64,000 nt of DNA, taken from the NCBI RefSeq assembly GCF_004122095.1, contig NZ_SAWZ01000002.1, positions 248,001 through 312,000 on the forward strand, read 5' to 3'. The DNA comes from Pseudoxanthomonas composti. GTDB lineage: Bacteria; Pseudomonadota; Gammaproteobacteria; Xanthomonadales; Xanthomonadaceae. This document shows positions 3,472 to 14,080 of the stretch, one piece after another. The notes below the pieces were generated by a model. It was given only the letters and a program-made list of their open reading frames with translations. It had not been told where the DNA came from and searched no databases. The stretch's first letter is position 1; every line of letters begins with the position of its first letter. The position numbers were made by a program, and so were the translations under genes.

Positions 3472-5610
3472 ATGAGCGGCACCACCCGCCGCCGTTTCCT
3501 GCAGGCGGGCGCGGCCATGGCCGGCGGCGCGCTGCTGCCGCCGGCCATCGCGCGTGCCTTGTCCATCGCCCCGGACGTGCGCAGCGGCTCGCTGCAGGAC
3601 GTGGCGCATGTGGTGATCCTGATGCAGGAGAACCGCAGCTTCGACCATTATTTCGGCGGACTGTCCGGCGTGCGCGGGTTCGGCGATCGCTTCCCGCTGC
3701 CGGTGCCGGGCACCGACCCACAGCGCCCGGCCACGGTCTGGCGCCAGCCCAGCCAGGACGGCACGCGCAGCTTGCTTCCGATCGCGCTGGACACGGCCGC
3801 GCAGTTCGGGCTGATGCGCATCCAGGGCACGCCGCACGTGTGGTCCGACGCCCAGCAAGCCTGGGATCATGGCCGCATGTCCGCCTGGCCCAGGGCCAAG
3901 CACGACCACGCCATGGGCCACTACGCGCGCGCGGACCTGCCGTTCCAGTACGCGCTGGCCGAGGCCTTCACCGTGTGCGATGCCTACCACGCCTCGCTGC
4001 AGACCGGCACCAATCCCAACCGCATCATGCTGTGGACCGGCACCATCGACGGGATGGGGCAGGGACACGGGCCGGCGGTGGCCAACTCGCACGACAACCT
4101 CCCCGAGCTGGGCGGGCACCCGGCGTCCTACACCTGGACCACCTACGTCGAGCGCCTGCAGCGCGCCGGGGTGAGCTGGCAGGTCTACCAGGACATGGAC
4201 GACAACTTCACCGACAACCCCCTGGCCGGGTTCGCGCCGTTCCGGCAGGCCTGGCGCAAGGCGCCCGGGCACGACCCGCAGCTGCTGGCCCGCGGCATGA
4301 GCACGCGCACGCTGCAGGACATGCGTGCCGACGTGGCAGCCGGCACCTTGCCGCAGGTCAGTTACCTGATCGCCGATGCGGCGCACAGCGAGCACCCCGA
4401 TCCATCCAGCCCCGCGCAGGGCGCGGACTACACCGCGCGCGTGCTCGACATTCTCACGGCCAACCCCGATGTCTGGGCGCGGACGGTGCTGTTGGTGATG
4501 TTCGACGAGAACGATGGCTTCTTCGACCACGTGCCGCCGCCAGCGCCCCCGTCGGCCGATGCCGAAAGCGAAGGCGGATTCGCCGGGGCGTCGATGGTGG
4601 ACACGCGGGGCGAGTACCACCACCTGCCGAGCGTGGGCAACGAGAAGGTCGACCTGCCGCAGTATCGCGGGCGTCCGTACGGGCTGGGCCCGCGCGTGCC
4701 GATGTATGTGGTCTCGCCCTGGAGCCGCGGTGGCTGGGTGAACTCGCAGGTGTTCGACCACACATCGGTCATCCGTTTCCTGGAGGCGCGCTTCGGCGTG
4801 GCCGAGCCCAACATCAGTCCGTGGCGTCGCGCCGTCTGCGGCGATCTGCTGTCGTGCTTCGATTTCACCGGTGCTGCGGCCGGCTTGCCCGAGCGCCTGC
4901 CAGACACCGCGGCCCTGGCTGCGCGTGCCGCCGCGCTGCCAGGCAAGCGCCTGCCGGTGTTGCCGGATCAGGCCACCCAGCCGGTGCCGGCGCAGGCGCG
5001 CGGGCGCCGGCGTTCGCGCGCCTTGCCCTACCAGCTGGCCACGGCCATCGAGACCGATGCCCGCCAGCGCACGGTGCGCCTGCGCCTGCAGGCACGTGGC
5101 GCGGCCGCGGTGCTGCATGTGTACGACCTGCACGCGCTGCAGGCGATCCCGCGGCGCTACACCGTCGCCGACGGCCAGCCGCTTGCGGCCGAGTGGGGCG
5201 TCCATGACGCAGGCCGCTACGACCTGTGGCTACTCGGTCCCAACGGATTCCATCGCCGCCAGCAGGGGCGCGTGGACGTCCGGCCCGTCCAGGCCACGCT
5301 GCGGGCGCGTGGCGACGCGCTCATGCTGGCGCTGCGTAACCCAGGCACGCAACAGGTCACCGTTCGTCTGCGCCCAGGCGCTTACGCGGGCGTGATGCCT
5401 GACAAGTCGCTGCAATTGGCCCCCGATGCCCAGACGGTCGTGTCATGGTCGCTGCAGGAAAGCGCCGGCTGGTATGACCTGTGGCTGGAACAGGATGGCG
5501 CCCGCCAGCGCCTGGCAGGCCGCTGGGAAACCGGACACCACGGCTGGTCCGACCCAGAGCTGGGCGGCCCGGCGCGCCTGTGGGTGGATGAGGAGACAGA
5601 CGCCGCCTAG
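3472..5610 (+). CDS. Tat-exported phosphocholine-type phospholipase C
   Basis: A 712-residue enzyme of the bacterial phospholipase C / acid phosphatase A superfamily (PlcH/PlcN type), which hydrolyses phosphatidylcholine or sphingomyelin to release phosphocholine. The N-terminus has a twin-arginine signal (TRRRFLQ, then an Ala-rich hydrophobic stretch ending AIARA). The catalytic domain starts with VVILMQENRSFDHYFG (E53 and N54 are the metal-binding pair of the family), followed by TGTNPNRIMLW and FDENDGFFDHVPPP. The last 200 or so residues contain two tandem beta domains typical of PlcH/PlcN C-termini. It follows the TBDR gene directly. Whether it prefers choline lipids or other phospholipids cannot be decided here. 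Confidence 0.88.
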   Translation: MSGTTRRRFLQAGAAMAGGALLPPAIARALSIAPDVRSGSLQDVAHVVILMQENRSFDHYFGGLSGVRGFGDRFPLPVPGTDPQRPATVWRQPSQDGTRSLLPIALDTAAQFGLMRIQGTPHVWSDAQQAWDHGRMSAWPRAKHDHAMGHYARADLPFQYALAEAFTVCDAYHASLQTGTNPNRIMLWTGTIDGMGQGHGPAVANSHDNLPELGGHPASYTWTTYVERLQRAGVSWQVYQDMDDNFTDNPLAGFAPFRQAWRKAPGHDPQLLARGMSTRTLQDMRADVAAGTLPQVSYLIADAAHSEHPDPSSPAQGADYTARVLDILTANPDVWARTVLLVMFDENDGFFDHVPPPAPPSADAESEGGFAGASMVDTRGEYHHLPSVGNEKVDLPQYRGRPYGLGPRVPMYVVSPWSRGGWVNSQVFDHTSVIRFLEARFGVAEPNISPWRRAVCGDLLSCFDFTGAAAGLPERLPDTAALAARAAALPGKRLPVLPDQATQPVPAQARGRRRSRALPYQLATAIETDARQRTVRLRLQARGAAAVLHVYDLHALQAIPRRYTVADGQPLAAEWGVHDAGRYDLWLLGPNGFHRRQQGRVDVRPVQATLRARGDALMLALRNPGTQQVTVRLRPGAYAGVMPDKSLQLAPDAQTVVSWSLQESAGWYDLWLEQDGARQRLAGRWETGHHGWSDPELGGPARLWVDEETDAA

Positions 5611-8459: not shown

Positions 8460-8790
8460 TTTGGATAAGCCGAGTCCGTTCGCGGCGCGGGCGTTCGGCT
8501 GGCGCGTGATGGTTAACGGGAGAGCACGTAGGTTGCCGATCGCCGGCTGGCAGGCCAATGACCCCACCGTGTGGACCGGCGCTGGACCTTGCCCCGCATA
8601 CGCCGATCTTGGCCGGCGGAGGTGCTGCGGTCCGCCTCGCTTGCGCCGGCGGAACAGGTCAAAGAGCCGAACCAGGCAAGACCGTGGCGACGCGACCGTT
8701 TTGCTCGACAGCTCAGTCGAGGTAGGAGAACAGGACAGCGAATCGGGAACCGAGCGGGCCAGTCAACGCTGCCACGCTCGCGTACCGCGT

Positions 8791-9594
8791 CTAGATCGCG
8801 TCCCGCAGCACCAGGCGCCGCAGGCTGGTGCCGGCCGGCCGGGCATTGGGGCCGAAGCGACGCTCGGCGAACACGATGGCCTGATCGTCCACCAGCACGA
8901 CCGTGCTGCACCGCGTGCCGTAGCGCTCGCCGGCAATGAACGGCGGCGATAGCGCCCGCTCCAGGACCACGCCCACGCCAGTGTCGGGCAGGGCCTCATC
9001 GGGTGCCGTGCTGGTGTCTGCCAGCGCGTCGAACAAGGGCTCCAGCGTCGGCAGATCCTGCTCGTCCAGGCTGCGCCCGGGGCGCTGCTCTTCCAGCCAG
9101 CGGTCGAGCGCATCGATGGCCCGCGTGCTCTTCGGCCAAGGCGCGTCGAAGGGTCCATTGGACATGGCGTGCAGGCCAGGCGTCACCTCGAGGTGCTGGA
9201 ACTGTGGGTGATTGCTGCAGAACTGCAACGTCCCAGCCTGCCAGGCCAGCAGGTTGAAGCGGCCGTAGCGCGGCGCGTCTGGCTCCAGCGACTGCAGGTA
9301 TTGCTGGGGTGAGGTGCTCCCGGTGACGTAGCCACGCACCAGCGCACCACGCGACAGCGGCCGCTGTTCCGGGTCCGGCCCGGCCCGCACGTTGGTGACC
9401 GCCGCCAAGCGCCCGCGCGTGGAGGCCAGCAACCAGCTGCCGCCCTGCTGCAGATCGCGGCCACCATAAACATCAGGAACGTCGGGGTCGGCCGCCGCCG
9501 CCAAGGCAGGGCGGCCATGGAACTCGTCGCGATTGGCGATCAGGGCCAGTCGGTAGCGCGGGTGGGTCCGCCAGCTGAGGGCAATCAGGCACAT
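8791..9594 (-). CDS. NRDE (TANGO2-like) family protein
   Basis: A 267-residue protein of the NRDE/TANGO2 family, named for its conserved Asn-Arg-Asp-Glu motif, here at residues 21-24 (LALIANRDEFHGRP). Cysteine is residue 2 (MCLIALSW), the position expected for an N-terminal nucleophile hydrolase-like fold. Further family blocks are GGRDLQQGGSWLLAS and AAVTNVRAG. Eukaryotic TANGO2 has been linked to haem trafficking and membrane metabolism; the bacterial role is unclear. Its start is divergent from the HD-family gene, about 90 bp away. Confidence 0.85.
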   Translation of the reverse strand: MCLIALSWRTHPRYRLALIANRDEFHGRPALAAAADPDVPDVYGGRDLQQGGSWLLASTRGRLAAVTNVRAGPDPEQRPLSRGALVRGYVTGSTSPQQYLQSLEPDAPRYGRFNLLAWQAGTLQFCSNHPQFQHLEVTPGLHAMSNGPFDAPWPKSTRAIDALDRWLEEQRPGRSLDEQDLPTLEPLFDALADTSTAPDEALPDTGVGVVLERALSPPFIAGERYGTRCSTVVLVDDQAIVFAERRFGPNARPAGTSLRRLVLRDAI

Positions 9595-9685
9595 GCCGCG
9601 CAGGCTAGCGCAGGTCGCGTTTGCAGGCAGCGAACCCTGGTGGCGACGCGTGCGCTGGCGCCGGCACGGCGTTAGCCTTGCCTGT

Positions 9686-10288
9686 ATGAGCGACCTTCTG
9701 CCTCTGGCACCCGAACAACAGGCCGCGCTGGAAGCGGCCTACGCCACGCCCCCGCGCGCCTACCACCATTTCGGTCACGCGCAGGATGTGCTGGAACAGG
9801 TTGAGCAGGTCCAGCGCGAGCTCGGCTGGCGCCATCCGGACGAGGTACGCATGGCGGCGCTCTACCACGACGCCATCTACGACCCGGCGCGCAAGGACAA
9901 CGAGGCGCGCTCGGCCGACCTGGCCCGCGCGCATCTCGCGCGCTGGATGCCCGCGCGCGTCGACGCTGAGCGGGTCGCCGAGCTGATCGTGCTCACCGCG
10001 CGCCACGGCCAGTTCAAGCCCGGCGAGCTGGATCCGGAGGCCGAACTGTTCCTGGACTGCGACATGGCCATCCTCGGCGCCGCCCCGGAGGCGTTCGATG
10101 CCTACCACCGCGGCATCGCCGCCGAGTACCGCCCGCACGTGCCCAGCTGGCTGTTCAAGCTCAAGCGCAAGCAGTTCCTCAAGGCCCTGCTGGGCGCCGA
10201 GCGCATCTACCTCAGCTCCCACTTCCACGCCCGCCTGGACGCGGCCGCCCGCGGCAACCTGCGGCGGGCGGTGACCGAAAAACGTTGA
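9686..10288 (+). CDS. predicted HD-superfamily metal-dependent phosphohydrolase
   Basis: A 200-residue HD-fold protein. Metal ligands of the fold are visible: H31 in YHHFGHAQDVL, H61-D62 in AALYHDAIYD, and a later Asp in LFLDCDMAILG. This is the COG4339-type family of stand-alone HD proteins, with no known physiological substrate. ATG 9686 is chosen because it gives the family N-terminus (MSDLLPLAPEQQAALEAAY); the frame is open about 90 bases further upstream into the divergent promoter region. Confidence 0.8.
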   Translation: MSDLLPLAPEQQAALEAAYATPPRAYHHFGHAQDVLEQVEQVQRELGWRHPDEVRMAALYHDAIYDPARKDNEARSADLARAHLARWMPARVDAERVAELIVLTARHGQFKPGELDPEAELFLDCDMAILGAAPEAFDAYHRGIAAEYRPHVPSWLFKLKRKQFLKALLGAERIYLSSHFHARLDAAARGNLRRAVTEKR

Positions 10289-10300
10289 GCTGAGCTTGAA

Positions 10301-10329
10301 TTGAAGAGAGACTGATGACGGCCGATATC
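10301..10329 (+). promoter_or_regulatory. possible promoter of the GNAT/borosin-like block
   Basis: TTGAAG (10301-10306) and GATATC (10324-10329) are 17 bp apart, giving a weak sigma70-like arrangement just before the GNAT gene. This is the first non-coding stretch after the HD gene, so a promoter for the next four genes is expected near here. Confidence 0.3.
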
Positions 10330-10361
10330 CCTGTCAGACGAAGGGATTGAAGGTCGGAGAC

Positions 10362-10895
10362 ATGCCTGAGCTGGTTCTGGAAAGTTCGCGCATGCGCTTG
10401 CGCCTGATGACAGGAGATGACTGGGCGCTCTATTCGGGGTACTACACTAGCGCTGAGGTCATGAGACACATCGTCGAGCCGATGTCGGAGGGGCAGGCTA
10501 GAACGGCATTCGCCAGGGTGTGTAAGGCTAATGCGGGGGGGAAGGGGGCATATGTCGCCTGGGTGTGTGTTGAAAAGGGCACAGGGGCAGCGATCGGCAT
10601 GTCGGCGTTGATGCTTGAGGGGGGCGTTGGCGAAGTCGGTACTATCATCTCCGATGGCTGGCATTCCAAAGGTCTTGGGGCTGAAGCGACAGCAGCCATC
10701 GCCGGATATGCTTTGCAGAGGCCGGACGTGCAGGTGGTCATGACCCGCCATCGCGTTGGAAATACCGCCGCTGAAGGTTTGATGGCGAAGTTGGACTTCA
10801 TCAAAGAAGCGGAGCCGAGAGGGGACGGCTTGCAGTACTGGTTGCTTAATAAGCAGGCGGCGAGCCACGTGCCGACGCATGGCCTTACAAGTTAG
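10362..10895 (+). CDS. GNAT N-acetyltransferase (RimJ/RimL-like)
   Basis: A 177-residue GNAT acetyltransferase of the RimJ/RimL type, which transfers acetyl from acetyl-CoA to amines, often protein N-termini. The N-terminal strand ESSRMRLRLMTGDDW and the segment GTIISDGWHSKGLGAEATAAIAGYA (acetyl-CoA binding, residues 99-123) are typical, followed by VMTRHRVGNTAAEGLMAKLDF. ATG 10362 is preferred over an in-frame TTG at 10347 because a purine-rich GGAG stretch precedes it. Base composition is visibly less GC-rich than the flanks. The methyltransferase gene follows after 41 bp, so it may be co-transcribed with, and modify the product of, the borosin-like genes; that link is only inferred. Confidence 0.8.
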   Translation: MPELVLESSRMRLRLMTGDDWALYSGYYTSAEVMRHIVEPMSEGQARTAFARVCKANAGGKGAYVAWVCVEKGTGAAIGMSALMLEGGVGEVGTIISDGWHSKGLGAEATAAIAGYALQRPDVQVVMTRHRVGNTAAEGLMAKLDFIKEAEPRGDGLQYWLLNKQAASHVPTHGLTS

Positions 10896-10936
10896 GAGAG
10901 GTTTTTGACTCAGTGGGCTGATACTGGAATCTCGCC

Positions 10937-11722
10937 GTGACCCCGGGCGCGCTCGTCTGTGTAGGTGTCGGCATCACCCTGGGCGCCCACATTGGCGCAC
11001 GTTCCCGCGCTTACATCGAAAGAGCGGACGTCGTGTTTTGCGCGCTCTCCGATTCCCTGGTGGAGGCCTGGGTCTCGAGCATGAACAAGGATGTGCGCAG
11101 CCTTCAGGGTTATTACAGAGAGGGTGCATCCCGGCGCAGGAGTTACGATGAGATGGTCGAGGCCGTTCTCTTCGAGGTGAGGCTGGGCCGGAAGGTCTGC
11201 ATGGCGCTCTACGGTCATCCGGGCGTGTTTGCCGTCATTGCTCACGAGGCAATCCGCCGCGCCCGGGATGAGGGGTTCAGCGCACTCATGGAGGCAGGTG
11301 TTTCGTCCGAGGATTGCCTATATGCTGACTTGGGAATTGATCCGGCGGATCAGGGTTGCCAGCATTACGAGGCGACGCAGTTCATGATCTATCAGCGTTT
11401 GATAGATCCGACGGCTTACCTCGTTCTATGGCAAATTGGACTGGCTGGCGACAGAACGTTGGCGAGGCGGTCAGTGCGAGCGGAACATCTCGCCTTACTG
11501 GTTGGGAAGCTCGAGCATCTTTACCCGCTGCAACATGTGGTCACACTATACGAGGCTGCTACCACGGCAATTGCGGAGCCAAGAATTAGAAGAGTCGCGC
11601 TTGCAGACCTGGCGAGCCAGGAGATTGGAATGGCGGAGACGCTGGTGGTCCCTCCGTCGCAGGGGATGCGGGCGGATATGGCGATGATGCAGCGTCTCGA
11701 GGCTTTGGATCGGTTGAACTGA
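10937..11722 (+). CDS. tetrapyrrole-methylase-like enzyme; candidate borosin alpha-N-methyltransferase (SonM-like)
   Basis: A 261-residue SAM-dependent methyltransferase of the tetrapyrrole methylase fold. Length and block order match SonM, the split-borosin peptide backbone N-methyltransferase of Shewanella: GALVCVGVGITLGAHIGARS at the N-terminus, RRRSYDEMVEAVL (residues 66-78, carrying the Arg/Tyr pair implicated in backbone methylation), ALYGHPGVFAVIAHEA (GHPG at 93-96, SAM pocket), and CLYADLGIDPADQGCQHYEAT followed by LWQIGLAGDRTL. Porphyrin or corrin methylases do not carry the last two blocks. GTG start at 10937 gives the same N-terminus as the family. The next gene, 22 bp downstream, encodes an 89-residue peptide with borosin-precursor features. 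No porphyrin or cobalamin genes are nearby. Assignment rests on remembered family sequences, not on a search. Confidence 0.85.
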   Translation: MTPGALVCVGVGITLGAHIGARSRAYIERADVVFCALSDSLVEAWVSSMNKDVRSLQGYYREGASRRRSYDEMVEAVLFEVRLGRKVCMALYGHPGVFAVIAHEAIRRARDEGFSALMEAGVSSEDCLYADLGIDPADQGCQHYEATQFMIYQRLIDPTAYLVLWQIGLAGDRTLARRSVRAEHLALLVGKLEHLYPLQHVVTLYEAATTAIAEPRIRRVALADLASQEIGMAETLVVPPSQGMRADMAMMQRLEALDRLN

Positions 11723-11744
11723 TTTTTTTGACTATGGGGGATAT

Positions 11745-12014
11745 ATGCGTGCAATTGTTTCAAAAGTAGAAGAGATTGGCGCTTCGGCGCTTTTGTTCGG
11801 TACATTGGATCAGGTTTTGGGGGATGATCTGCCGGCACAGGGGGCAAGCGCGATCCGCAATGGTGATGTCTCAGCGCTGCGTGACATGCTGGGCGTCAGT
11901 CAGTTCATGATGTGTGCGATCTGGCCGGTTAAGGAAGGGGACGGCGATCATGAGGACGGGGAAAGGAAGGATGGGGACGACCACCAAGAAGACGATCGCG
12001 ATCTTCCGGAGTAA
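11745..12014 (+). CDS. candidate split-borosin precursor peptide
   Basis: An 89-residue peptide encoded 22 bp after the SonM-like methyltransferase, with GGGGG (11736-11740) as ribosome site. Residues 1-26 look helical (KVEEIGASALLFGTLDQVLG). Residues 28-50 (DLPAQGASAIRNGDVSALRDML) have the helix-Gly-Asp-helix pattern of the borosin-binding domain of SonA-like precursors. A hydrophobic stretch VSQFMMCAIWPV (51-62) follows and is the likely methylated core. The tail, residues 63-89, is very acidic (EGDGDHEDGERKDGDD and so on). It has no signal peptide or membrane segment and resembles no enzyme. It overlaps the GGDEF gene. What the mature product is, and whether it is released by proteolysis, is unknown. 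Confidence 0.75.
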   Translation: MRAIVSKVEEIGASALLFGTLDQVLGDDLPAQGASAIRNGDVSALRDMLGVSQFMMCAIWPVKEGDGDHEDGERKDGDDHQEDDRDLPE

Positions 12015-13836
12015 TCGGCGGGTTTATCTGTCGGTCGCCCTTGGGGTCTGCGTCTTATTCGCTACCGCTGCGTCGGCTTCGCAGCCCAGGCCGATCGGCA
12101 TGGTGCTGGATGAGGCCGACGCCATGCGCAGCGATGCCAACAGGTCGAGATTTGCGGAGCTTCTCGAAGAGTTGAATCATCGAGTTGCAGAGGCATCGGA
12201 GGAGCAGAGCGAACAGATCTCCTATCTCAATGCGTATCGAACCGCACTCGCCGGCAGTTACAAACAAGCCATCGCCGAGGCAGTTGACCTCTTTCAGCGT
12301 TCGAAGAACGCAGACATGCGTTTCCGCGCGGCCGCCTTGGCGCTCAACGGAATGGCGGTACAGGCGGATTACACAGGGGGCCTCCGGCAGCTCGAGTCCA
12401 TTTTGCCGCTGGTCGACCAAGTCAAGAACATCGAAGTCCGTCGGCAGGGCCTCGGGGCTGGCGCCACGCTTTACAACCAGGTCGGCCAGTACGAGCTGGC
12501 AATTCCGCTTCTCGAGAAAATCCGGCAAGGCGGCGGGCTGAGTCCCAGAACATCGTGTTTTACCAATTACGCGGAACTCGAGGCTCTGCAGGGCTTGGGA
12601 CGTTTTCCGGAGGATGGGACGGCGGACCGTTACGCATCCAAGTGCGAGGGGAATGGAGAGAAGCTGGTCGCTGTTTTCATTCGCTCTTTCATCGCTCGTT
12701 CGCTGAAGGCACAAGGAAAGATCGACGAAGCCAGCAGGCTACTGGAACGTTTGAGTCGTGAGGCTCATGACATTGGCTATCCGGCACAGATTTCCCAAGT
12801 CGACTCGCTGCTCGCTGAAGTTCGCCTTCTCCGGCACGATCTCGAAGGCGCGTTGCGGGCATCAGCCTCGGCCGTGGCGGCCGGCGAAAAGACGCCGACT
12901 TCCGCTGTTTCTCTTGTTTCGGCCTACAAGACCCAGTACCAGGTTGCGGAGACCCGAGGGGATACGATACGCGCCTTGGCTGCCTACAAGCTCTACATGC
13001 AGGCAGATAAGCAGAACATCGATCAGGTCAAAGCCAAGGAACTGGCTTATCAGATCGTGAGGCATGAGACACAGCAGAAGGCGCAGCAGATCTCGCTGCT
13101 CAGTAAGCAGAATGAGGTGTTGCGGCTCCAGCAGCAGGTCGACAAGCAGTCCGCGCAGAACTCCCGGCTGATGGTGTTGCTGATGCTGCTGGTTTGCGGT
13201 TTCGTGGGCTACTGGGCCTACAAGGTCAAGCGCGTGCAGATCTCGCTCAAGCGCTGGGCCGAGACCGATGCGCTGACGCAGGTCAGCAACCGCCACAGCT
13301 TCTCCCAGACCAGTCGGAATGCGCTCACCGATGCGGCCCGCGATGGCGAGGAGGTGGCGATGGTCATGTTCGACCTGGACCACTTCAAGGCCATCAACGA
13401 TCGCTTCGGCCATGGCACCGGCGATTGGGTGTTGAAGGAGGTCGCAGAGGTTTGCCGCAGCTTCTGCCGCCGGGTGGACCAGATCGGTCGGCTGGGCGGG
13501 GAGGAGTTCGCTTTCCTGCTGCGCGGTTACGATGCGCGCTCGGCGGTGCGGCTGTCCGACGACTGTCGCGCGCGGCTGGCGTCGATCGACACCGCGCCCA
13601 GTGGGCACAGCTTCGTGGTCACCGGCAGCTTCGGCGTCACCACGACAGCCCTATCCGGCTACGACCTCACGCGCCTGCTCTCGCACGCCGACAACGCGCT
13701 TTATCGCGCCAAGCGGGAAGGGCGCAACCGCGTCTATCTCTATGAACCGGCCGCGGTTTCGGTGGAGTCGCAGTTCGGAGAGGTCATGGCGGACAACGTG
13801 GTGCCGCTCAAGGCCGAGCCCGCGGCCTGGGCCTGA
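11950..13836 (+). CDS. membrane diguanylate cyclase with periplasmic TPR-like sensor
   Basis: A 628-residue GGDEF protein that should make cyclic-di-GMP. An N-terminal signal/anchor (RVYLSVALGVCVLFATAASAS) is followed by about 340 residues of helical TPR-like repeats, a Gln-rich coiled coil (about 370-405), a transmembrane helix (about 407-427) and a C-terminal GGDEF domain. The active site is G516-G-E-E-F520, and an inhibitory-site RxxD motif (507-510) sits five residues before it, so both catalysis and product inhibition look intact. The start is uncertain: ATG 11950 (used) or ATG 11971 (preceded by GGAAAGGAAGG). Either overlaps the peptide gene by 44-65 bp, suggesting translational coupling. 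The 5' part of the gene is less GC-rich than the GGDEF part. Any functional link to the peptide is unproven. Confidence 0.88.
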   Translation: MRTGKGRMGTTTKKTIAIFRSNRRVYLSVALGVCVLFATAASASQPRPIGMVLDEADAMRSDANRSRFAELLEELNHRVAEASEEQSEQISYLNAYRTALAGSYKQAIAEAVDLFQRSKNADMRFRAAALALNGMAVQADYTGGLRQLESILPLVDQVKNIEVRRQGLGAGATLYNQVGQYELAIPLLEKIRQGGGLSPRTSCFTNYAELEALQGLGRFPEDGTADRYASKCEGNGEKLVAVFIRSFIARSLKAQGKIDEASRLLERLSREAHDIGYPAQISQVDSLLAEVRLLRHDLEGALRASASAVAAGEKTPTSAVSLVSAYKTQYQVAETRGDTIRALAAYKLYMQADKQNIDQVKAKELAYQIVRHETQQKAQQISLLSKQNEVLRLQQQVDKQSAQNSRLMVLLMLLVCGFVGYWAYKVKRVQISLKRWAETDALTQVSNRHSFSQTSRNALTDAARDGEEVAMVMFDLDHFKAINDRFGHGTGDWVLKEVAEVCRSFCRRVDQIGRLGGEEFAFLLRGYDARSAVRLSDDCRARLASIDTAPSGHSFVVTGSFGVTTTALSGYDLTRLLSHADNALYRAKREGRNRVYLYEPAAVSVESQFGEVMADNVVPLKAEPAAWA

Positions 13837-13867
13837 GGGCGATACGGGCCCGAACCTGCTTTTCGCG

Positions 13868-13890
13868 TCGGCCCGCCTCGTGCGGGCCGA
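13868..13890 (+). terminator. hairpin after GGDEF gene
   Basis: TCGGCCCGC and GCGGGCCGA form a perfect 9-bp stem with loop CTCGT, 31 bp after the GGDEF stop codon. Only a short TGCTTT follows, so it is a weak intrinsic terminator. Confidence 0.5.
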
Positions 13891-14080
13891 TGCTTTAACG
13901 GGATGGAGACCTGCCTCGGAGATGATTGCTCGCGTGTGAGTCATGCGCACAGACGTGTATGGTCAGACAGCGCCCCGTGTCACCTCATGATCTCCTGTGA
14001 CCCAATCCCGAGTGCGCCTGCTTTCGCGTCGCCTTGACCGCCCCTGGCCCCACGATGCGGTTTTCAACAGGAGACGGCCG

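Follow-up and report, generated by a model that had tools for sequence, protein, structure and literature searches.

The described system closest to the locus reported here is the type IV split borosin SonM-SonA of Shewanella oneidensis (PMC8429565, PDB 7LTC), in which the methyltransferase and its precursor, composed of a borosin-binding domain (BBD) and a core, are encoded by separate genes. In the accessible part of PMC8429565 the BBD of SonA is given as residues 1-53 and its methylated residues as L63 and I65. The type XI borosin (XulAM; PMC11395268) is related in another respect, the coupling of a GGDEF domain to the borosin methyltransferase; the accessible part of that paper names a domain of unknown function in the text and GGDEF in a figure legend, and the words TPR, kinase and signal are absent from its main text as far as accessible.

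Like SonM-SonA, the locus analysed here has a separate methyltransferase and BBD-core precursor in the same gene order and with the same key residues. It lies within 64,000 nucleotides of Pseudoxanthomonas composti (the window, meaning that whole stretch) and is a four-gene unit on the + strand, made up of a GNAT acetyltransferase, a borosin N-methyltransferase, the precursor and a TPR-GGDEF diguanylate cyclase. The first-pass annotation, which used the sequence alone, had drawn the locus around the methyltransferase-precursor pair; the pair stands, but two partners had been missed, a GNAT gene on the upstream side and, immediately downstream, the TPR-GGDEF gene that is the precursor's conserved companion. 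Compared with SonM-SonA, the window has a GNAT gene in addition and the core reads FMMCAIWP, followed by a long acidic tail, instead of ...YLVISHGN. Compared with type XI, as far as the accessible part of PMC11395268 describes it, cyclase and methyltransferase are separate genes.

The methyltransferase gene (10937..11722, +, GTG start) encodes a 261-aa SonM homologue, a split-borosin peptide alpha-N-methyltransferase by its SonM match and aligned residues. SonM (7ltc) is its top match among PDB chains (phmmer, E 5e-73), fungal OphMA-type enzymes follow (E 3e-44 to 8e-40) and Pfam returns TP_methylase (E 5.6e-18); the proposed profile comparison of borosin with CobA/CbiF-type enzymes fell on the borosin side; the SonM-like blocks quoted at first pass are present. 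Identity to SonM is 117 of 251 aligned residues (47%), and the six key active-site and lock residues are kept (Y58, R67, Y71, Y93, F99 and W166 of SonM; Y60, R66, Y70, Y92, F98 and W165 in the window). The 14 SonM positions that we compared are those looked up among the ones named in the accessible part of PMC8429565; ten are kept (Q55, Y58, R67, R68, Y71, Y93, F99, E146, W166 and L176) and four other contact residues are altered (L34 to A, E173 to D, Q178 to R and F179 to R). Two of the altered positions, E173 and Q178, are part of the SonM clamp network according to the same part of that paper, so clamp details may differ in the window enzyme. A discrete SonM/OphMA-type alpha-N-methyltransferase with its catalytic residues, a separate adjacent precursor whose family profile against SonA gives an N-terminal BBD and a C-terminal core, and the gene layout all fit the split-borosin pair proposed at first pass, and we consider it nearly certain that 10937-12014 is a type IV split borosin.

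The precursor gene (11745..12014, +, 89 aa) follows the methyltransferase frame after 22 bp on the same strand, in agreement with the lengths and spacing annotated before. As a single query it returned nothing useful from Pfam, NCBIfam and further profile and sequence searches, had no tblastn match in plasmids and matched 0 of the 59 other loci of its order at E < 1e-10. Iterated HMM searches, run over loci from 55 further genomes of the window's order, found its relatives, mostly located between the methyltransferase and the next gene, and a 49-member profile that includes the window sequence matches the SonA chains of the PDB (E 4e-5 to 3e-4 overall; 9cgw_B E 3.6e-5, 7ltc_B E 9.8e-5) over residues 1-64/69. 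From the SonA alignment and predicted helices, residues 1 to about 51 (11745..11897, +) are a leader, or BBD-like region. The same alignment, read by eye, places a putative core, FMMCAIWP, at residues 54-61 (11904..11927, +), where A58 and W60 align with the methylated L63 and I65 of SonA and are the predicted sites of methylation. The remaining 28 residues form an acidic tail of net charge -10 (11928..12011, +), the end of which runs, in a different frame, into the start of the next gene. Across the family the core follows roughly the pattern [MVL][FMIV]C[MAG][ILV][WFV][AP], with a Cys at the position of window C57 in 36 of the 49 aligned members, and the tail is net-negative in all 49 (median charge -9). 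Core and tail had been singled out at first pass as unlike SonA; both do differ, yet both are typical of this precursor subfamily. The helix pair described there gave way to four helices in the structural model (residues 2-14, 21-25, 31-38 and 42-49, block pLDDT 74-92), for which Foldseek returned no significant match (best OphA, E 7.3). By eye, no signal peptide was seen in the precursor.

The GNAT gene (10347..10895, +; PF13302, Pfam E 1.2e-17) is the first of the putative operon. At its other end, a TPR-GGDEF membrane diguanylate cyclase of 621 aa (11971..13836, +), assigned from Pfam and AlphaFold2, starts at ATG 11971 or ATG 11950 and shares 44 or 65 nt, respectively, with the precursor gene. 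Within 11950-12014 overlapping frames encode the acidic tail and the cyclase N-terminus, an arrangement that may point to translational coupling. The GGDEF domain (13258..13731, +; Pfam E 6e-40) carries an RLGGEEF active site, in which R507, G509, G510, E511, E512 and F513 are invariant among the 46 sequences of alignment A2, as are C196 and C225 of the sensor part; an RxxD motif was seen by eye 5 residues before GGEEF. Given this intact GG[DE]EF motif, the product is predicted to be a diguanylate cyclase that makes c-di-GMP. Its AlphaFold2 model (mean pLDDT 91) is all-helical over residues 42-330, then continues as a 100-residue helix and the GGDEF domain. Residues 42-330 (12094..12960, +) are a predicted periplasmic TPR-like sensor domain, with helical hairpins between two hydrophobic segments that begin at residues 18 and 401; by hydropathy only, both segments are also present in 133 of 153 sensors. 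Against Pfam TPR models the window protein stays under the cut-off (best E 0.015, none at 0.01), and only relatives reach it (TPR_12 E 3.4e-11 in L082, E 1.1e-8 in L077; L and G numbers are our labels for loci and genomes), so the TPR label is by fold and family and not by Pfam. Foldseek with the cyclase model is silent on the TPR fold, because GGDEF-protein structures filled the matches listed (best 50 of 1452).

RNA searches of seven loci returned no c-di-GMP riboswitch or other RNA element at the gathering threshold, with one irrelevant sub-threshold match in window 9500-14000, and promoter and terminator scans gave no more signals than shuffled sequence. No exporter or protease gene was recognised by eye adjoining the pair. 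Further upstream, a 712-aa ORF (3472-5610, +) has a twin-arginine-like start and, by eye, the look of a secreted phosphoesterase.

Comparative genomics within the window's order indicates that methyltransferase and sensor occur together. Among 100 relatives, 56 have the methyltransferase and 57 match the cyclase sensor-region query; both are found in 54 genomes, the methyltransferase alone in two (G058 and G088, the gene lying at a contig edge in the latter), the sensor alone in three (G093, G098 and G099, the last at E 9e-4) and neither in 41 (Fisher p 5e-22, a test that treats genomes as independent of phylogeny, which they are not). Neighbourhoods of ±9 kb were compared at E < 1e-10 for the 59 other loci of the order: a GGDEF homologue is present in 57 and GNAT in 25, upstream window genes other than GNAT in 0-2, and downstream window genes in at most 18, four of them in 14-18. 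Over all 60 loci of the order, a GGDEF sensor is near the methyltransferase in 57 and a GNAT of the window's family occurs in 38.

We extended the comparison to 150 borosin loci, the window's own included: 60 of the 61 methyltransferase matches of the window's order (a duplicate contig copy in G056 was left out), 10 from a class/phylum sample, 60 from relatives of two outlying genomes, G575 and G386 (63/147 and 5/95 genomes methyltransferase-positive; 57 + 3 regions hand-picked, mostly to spread over genera), and 20 from a Shewanella-like set (36/60 genomes positive). A scan of genome contigs with back-translated patterns confirmed a single locus, L021, which played no further part. Under one rule set the precursor is detected in 128 of the 150 loci. 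In 123 of them a TPR-sensor gene of the same strand follows it directly, at most 400 bp away in either direction and with a median gap of 8 bp; this 123 is on the low side, since the rule misses the precursors of L039, L049, L055, L061, L067 and L158 and the sensor of L147. Precursor hits of at least 260 aa were dropped, which removes weak hits in L089 and L145. By group, adjacency was found in 52/60 loci of the window's order, 3/10 of the class/phylum sample, 48/60 of the G575/G386 relatives and 20/20 Shewanella-like loci. Training of the precursor HMMs used loci of the window's order only; the 90 loci outside training comprise 74 with a precursor, 71 of them with the precursor directly 5′ of a sensor. 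Sensor HMMs were built from alignment A2 and from L082/L083, and 135/150 loci have a same-strand TPR sensor at a distance of up to 3 kb or one fused to the methyltransferase; GNAT is found in 64/150.

A complementary count over the 17,191 ORFs of these loci gave 138 precursor hits, 132 of them 5′ of a TPR sensor, six only near a methyltransferase and none elsewhere, while 127 of 153 TPR sensors have a precursor 5′ and 26 do not; these loci were picked by their methyltransferase, so the figures are not valid for whole genomes. The class sample had 10 methyltransferase-positive genomes out of 369; a sensor match was obtained in 4 of the 369, all four methyltransferase-positive, leaving six of the ten positives without one. 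The arrangement also holds among close relatives of SonM-SonA, with a TPR gene 1-48 bp after SonA in 12/12 loci of close SonM relatives and a TPR-GGDEF gene directly behind the precursor in 20/20 longer loci of the Shewanella-like genus. We treated this genus as Shewanella on account of its SonM, which reaches 99% identity with the PDB sequence.

What stays constant when these loci are rearranged is the precursor-sensor unit. The methyltransferase may stand before the precursor, after the sensor, divergently (L090) or fused behind GGDEF, and some precursor-sensor units lack a methyltransferase within the stretch examined (L095, L097 and, at a contig end, L096). A second unit is found behind one methyltransferase in L028, L050, L067 and L115 and around one in L160. 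The output is exchanged while the TPR part is kept: 108 of the 123 adjacent sensors end in GGDEF and 15 in a histidine kinase, a version that occurs in some loci outside the window's order. GGDEF and methylase are joined in one polypeptide, the methylase C-terminal, in L070, L071, L077 and L078, all four of the fusions scanned by Pfam being TPR-GGDEF-methylase, and ORF and phmmer data add L072 and L079; L070-L072 and L077-L079 look like the type XI GGDEF-methyltransferase proteins. Adjacency of precursor and sensor in most related loci suggests that borosin peptides act in cell signalling, and we think it very probable that precursor and sensor work together.

Sequence covariation over 101 loci is only suggestive as to which parts are paired. 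The core covaries with TPR at a partial r of 0.28, with the methyltransferase at 0.23 and with GGDEF at 0.13, and the leader with the methyltransferase at 0.25 vs 0.11 with TPR. Bootstrap support was 0.70-0.88 for core-TPR over core-GGDEF and 0.49-0.92 for leader-methyltransferase over leader-TPR, differences that are not significant, and within the window's order alone the leader contrast vanishes (methyltransferase 0.40 vs TPR 0.42). Weakly, then, the covariation favours pairing of the core with TPR over pairing with GGDEF.

As a whole, these observations are best explained, with a probability of about 0.5, if the adjacent TPR sensor has the methylated peptide as its cognate ligand or regulator, by which c-di-GMP is controlled. 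The methyltransferase would bind the leader and then methylate backbone amides of the hydrophobic core, at the predicted A58 and W60; an unlinked cellular protease would free a short N-methylated peptide, possibly also N-acetylated, as the GNAT may acetylate an amino terminus. The freed peptide would reach the periplasm and bind the TPR domain, a ligand step that we place slightly short of even odds, and binding would set cytoplasmic GGDEF activity, whatever the sign of the effect, by which the cell would tune c-di-GMP. In some loci beyond the window's order, the same cassette would drive a histidine kinase instead. Counting against this reading, no signal peptide, exporter or protease was recognised by eye that would account for passage to the periplasm. 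Somewhat more tentatively, we speculate that gammaproteobacterial split borosins, SonM-SonA included, are peptide signalling systems at large, in which every backbone-N-methylated peptide serves as a dedicated ligand, its receptor being the periplasmic TPR sensor that the following gene encodes, and the same peptide-TPR input is plugged into a diguanylate cyclase or a histidine kinase. N-methylation would, if this is true, provide protease resistance and membrane passage and could explain why no exporter was recognised beside the precursor.

Two alternatives dispense with the connection between peptide and sensor altogether. TP_methylase, the fold family assigned to 10937-11722 by Pfam, would also suit a corrin or porphyrin methyltransferase followed by an unrelated small ORF, yet no NCBIfam model comes close to its cut-off (CobI/CbiL 15.3 bits vs 163, YabN 35 vs 525, CobM 13.3 vs 260, PRK05991 13.7 vs 391), SonM is by far the top PDB match with its key residues conserved, and ORF 11745-12014 belongs to the borosin-precursor family; we rejected this identity as scarcely credible. 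An ordinary split borosin with an unrelated GGDEF gene as its chance neighbour gains some plausibility from the abundance of such genes (33 GGDEF matches in the 4.33 Mb window genome) and from the four downstream neighbours that likewise recur in 14-18 of 59 loci. From that abundance, however, one expects a GGDEF gene on the same strand within 1.5 kb downstream at about 0.006 per locus, or within 3 kb on either side at about 0.02 by the same arithmetic, against the 57/60 counted in the order; moreover, the upstream genes other than GNAT are shared by only 0-2 of 59 loci and the precursor-sensor pairing extends outside the order. We therefore discarded chance neighbourhood as very improbable.

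The other two keep the connection but change its place or direction, and we hold either to be unlikely, to a similar degree. The fusions, with the methyltransferase beside the cytoplasmic output, also allow a cytoplasmic mechanism. Here the cyclase or kinase would be acted on from the cytoplasmic side by the precursor, alone or in complex with the methyltransferase; dimer geometry and output could be set through methylation or leader binding, and export is unneeded. GGDEF proteins act as dimers. The single GGDEF-methyltransferase polypeptides (L070, L071, L077 and L078; L072 and L079), the precursor's want of a visible signal peptide and the homodimeric state of SonM, as given in the accessible part of PMC8429565, would suit this coupling, whereas the partner that stays constant across output swaps is the TPR part, predicted periplasmic, and precursor-sensor units exist without a nearby methyltransferase. 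Such units are also awkward for a flow of information in reverse, in which the TPR sensor reads some other cue and, via c-di-GMP or a phosphorelay, governs the making, maturation or release of an external borosin, possibly an antibiotic or a metallophore: a local regulator explains them poorly where they lie away from the methyltransferase, and duplicated units keep one precursor per sensor. In favour of reverse flow, regulators are common in biosynthetic clusters and at least one lineage may secrete its borosin, given a sensor-less locus (L059) in which a precursor with repeated core-like motifs accompanies a C39-peptidase ABC exporter.

For the ligand reading, the nearest parallel in organisation is with Gram-positive bacteria, where the RRNPP receptors (Rap/NprR/PlcR) are cytoplasmic TPR proteins that respond to unmodified, imported peptides, each small peptide gene lying beside its own TPR receptor gene in cassettes of which a genome holds several. 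Borosin loci resemble these in that a small peptide gene beside a TPR-protein gene, here a putative receptor, forms a repeating unit. Membership of the RRNPP family proper was rejected on topology, since the window's TPR domain is predicted periplasmic and linked, in this family, to GGDEF or a histidine kinase, and the peptide is a predicted methylated RiPP. Should the peptide indeed be the ligand, Gram-negative bacteria would have a modified peptide as a signal that controls c-di-GMP, following a peptide-TPR logic like that of Gram-positive bacteria. The conserved pairing with TPR-sensor cyclases and kinases makes the role of the peptide testable in Shewanella oneidensis MR-1, for which the SonM-SonA complex has been solved.

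Among the papers searched, as far as their text was accessible, 'borosin' and 'GGDEF' occur together only in PMC11395268, 'borosin' and 'diguanylate' in none, and borosin and histidine kinase in one marine-RiPP review; neither GGDEF nor diguanylate nor histidine kinase is mentioned in the main text of a further review, PMC11285071. A link between borosin precursors and TPR/GGDEF sensors was not found in the literature searched, with prior mention possible in Imani 2022, Cho 2022, Lee 2024 and Crone 2023.

Exceptions to the adjacency rule amount to 27 of the 150 loci. Sensors without a recognisable precursor are second copies in L024-L026, L083 and L097 and also occur in L092, L093, L094, L098 and L099, while L080 and L137 have precursor and methyltransferase without a TPR sensor by the rule. 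Seven distant methyltransferases (L084-L089 and L091) showed neither sensor nor precursor by the HMMs used. Protease genes have a patchy distribution: pepsin-like PF00026 proteins occur in 7/100 relatives, all seven methyltransferase-positive, and beside the borosin locus in four (G049, G055, G082 and G097). Lee et al. are said to have reported in 2024 that shewasin A, a pepsin-like protease, matures a Shewanella borosin; the window's genome has no PF00026 match, and we rejected a shewasin-type maturation for the window on that ground.

The locus L059 looks like a secreted multi-core borosin. Its precursor (8476-8910, +) contains, by eye, repeated core-like motifs of the form YFC[WAG]V.TPEE and similar, and its methyltransferase is accompanied by the C39-peptidase ABC exporter (Pfam; 10105-12255, +); neither a TPR sensor in the locus nor a sensor match in its genome, G058, was found. 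Three of the distant loci, L086, L087 and L088, carry borosin methyltransferases of another group, each preceded by a small ORF, and have no TPR sensor by the models used; by eye, all three also contain look-alike ORFs of about 440-470 aa in the vicinity, and two of them, L086 and L087, MFS-like ORFs. Gene copy number also varies among the loci: a single sensor is preceded by a run of two or three precursor genes in L037, L118, L120 and L179, and there are two borosin methyltransferase genes in a single locus in L117, L133, L138 and L154.
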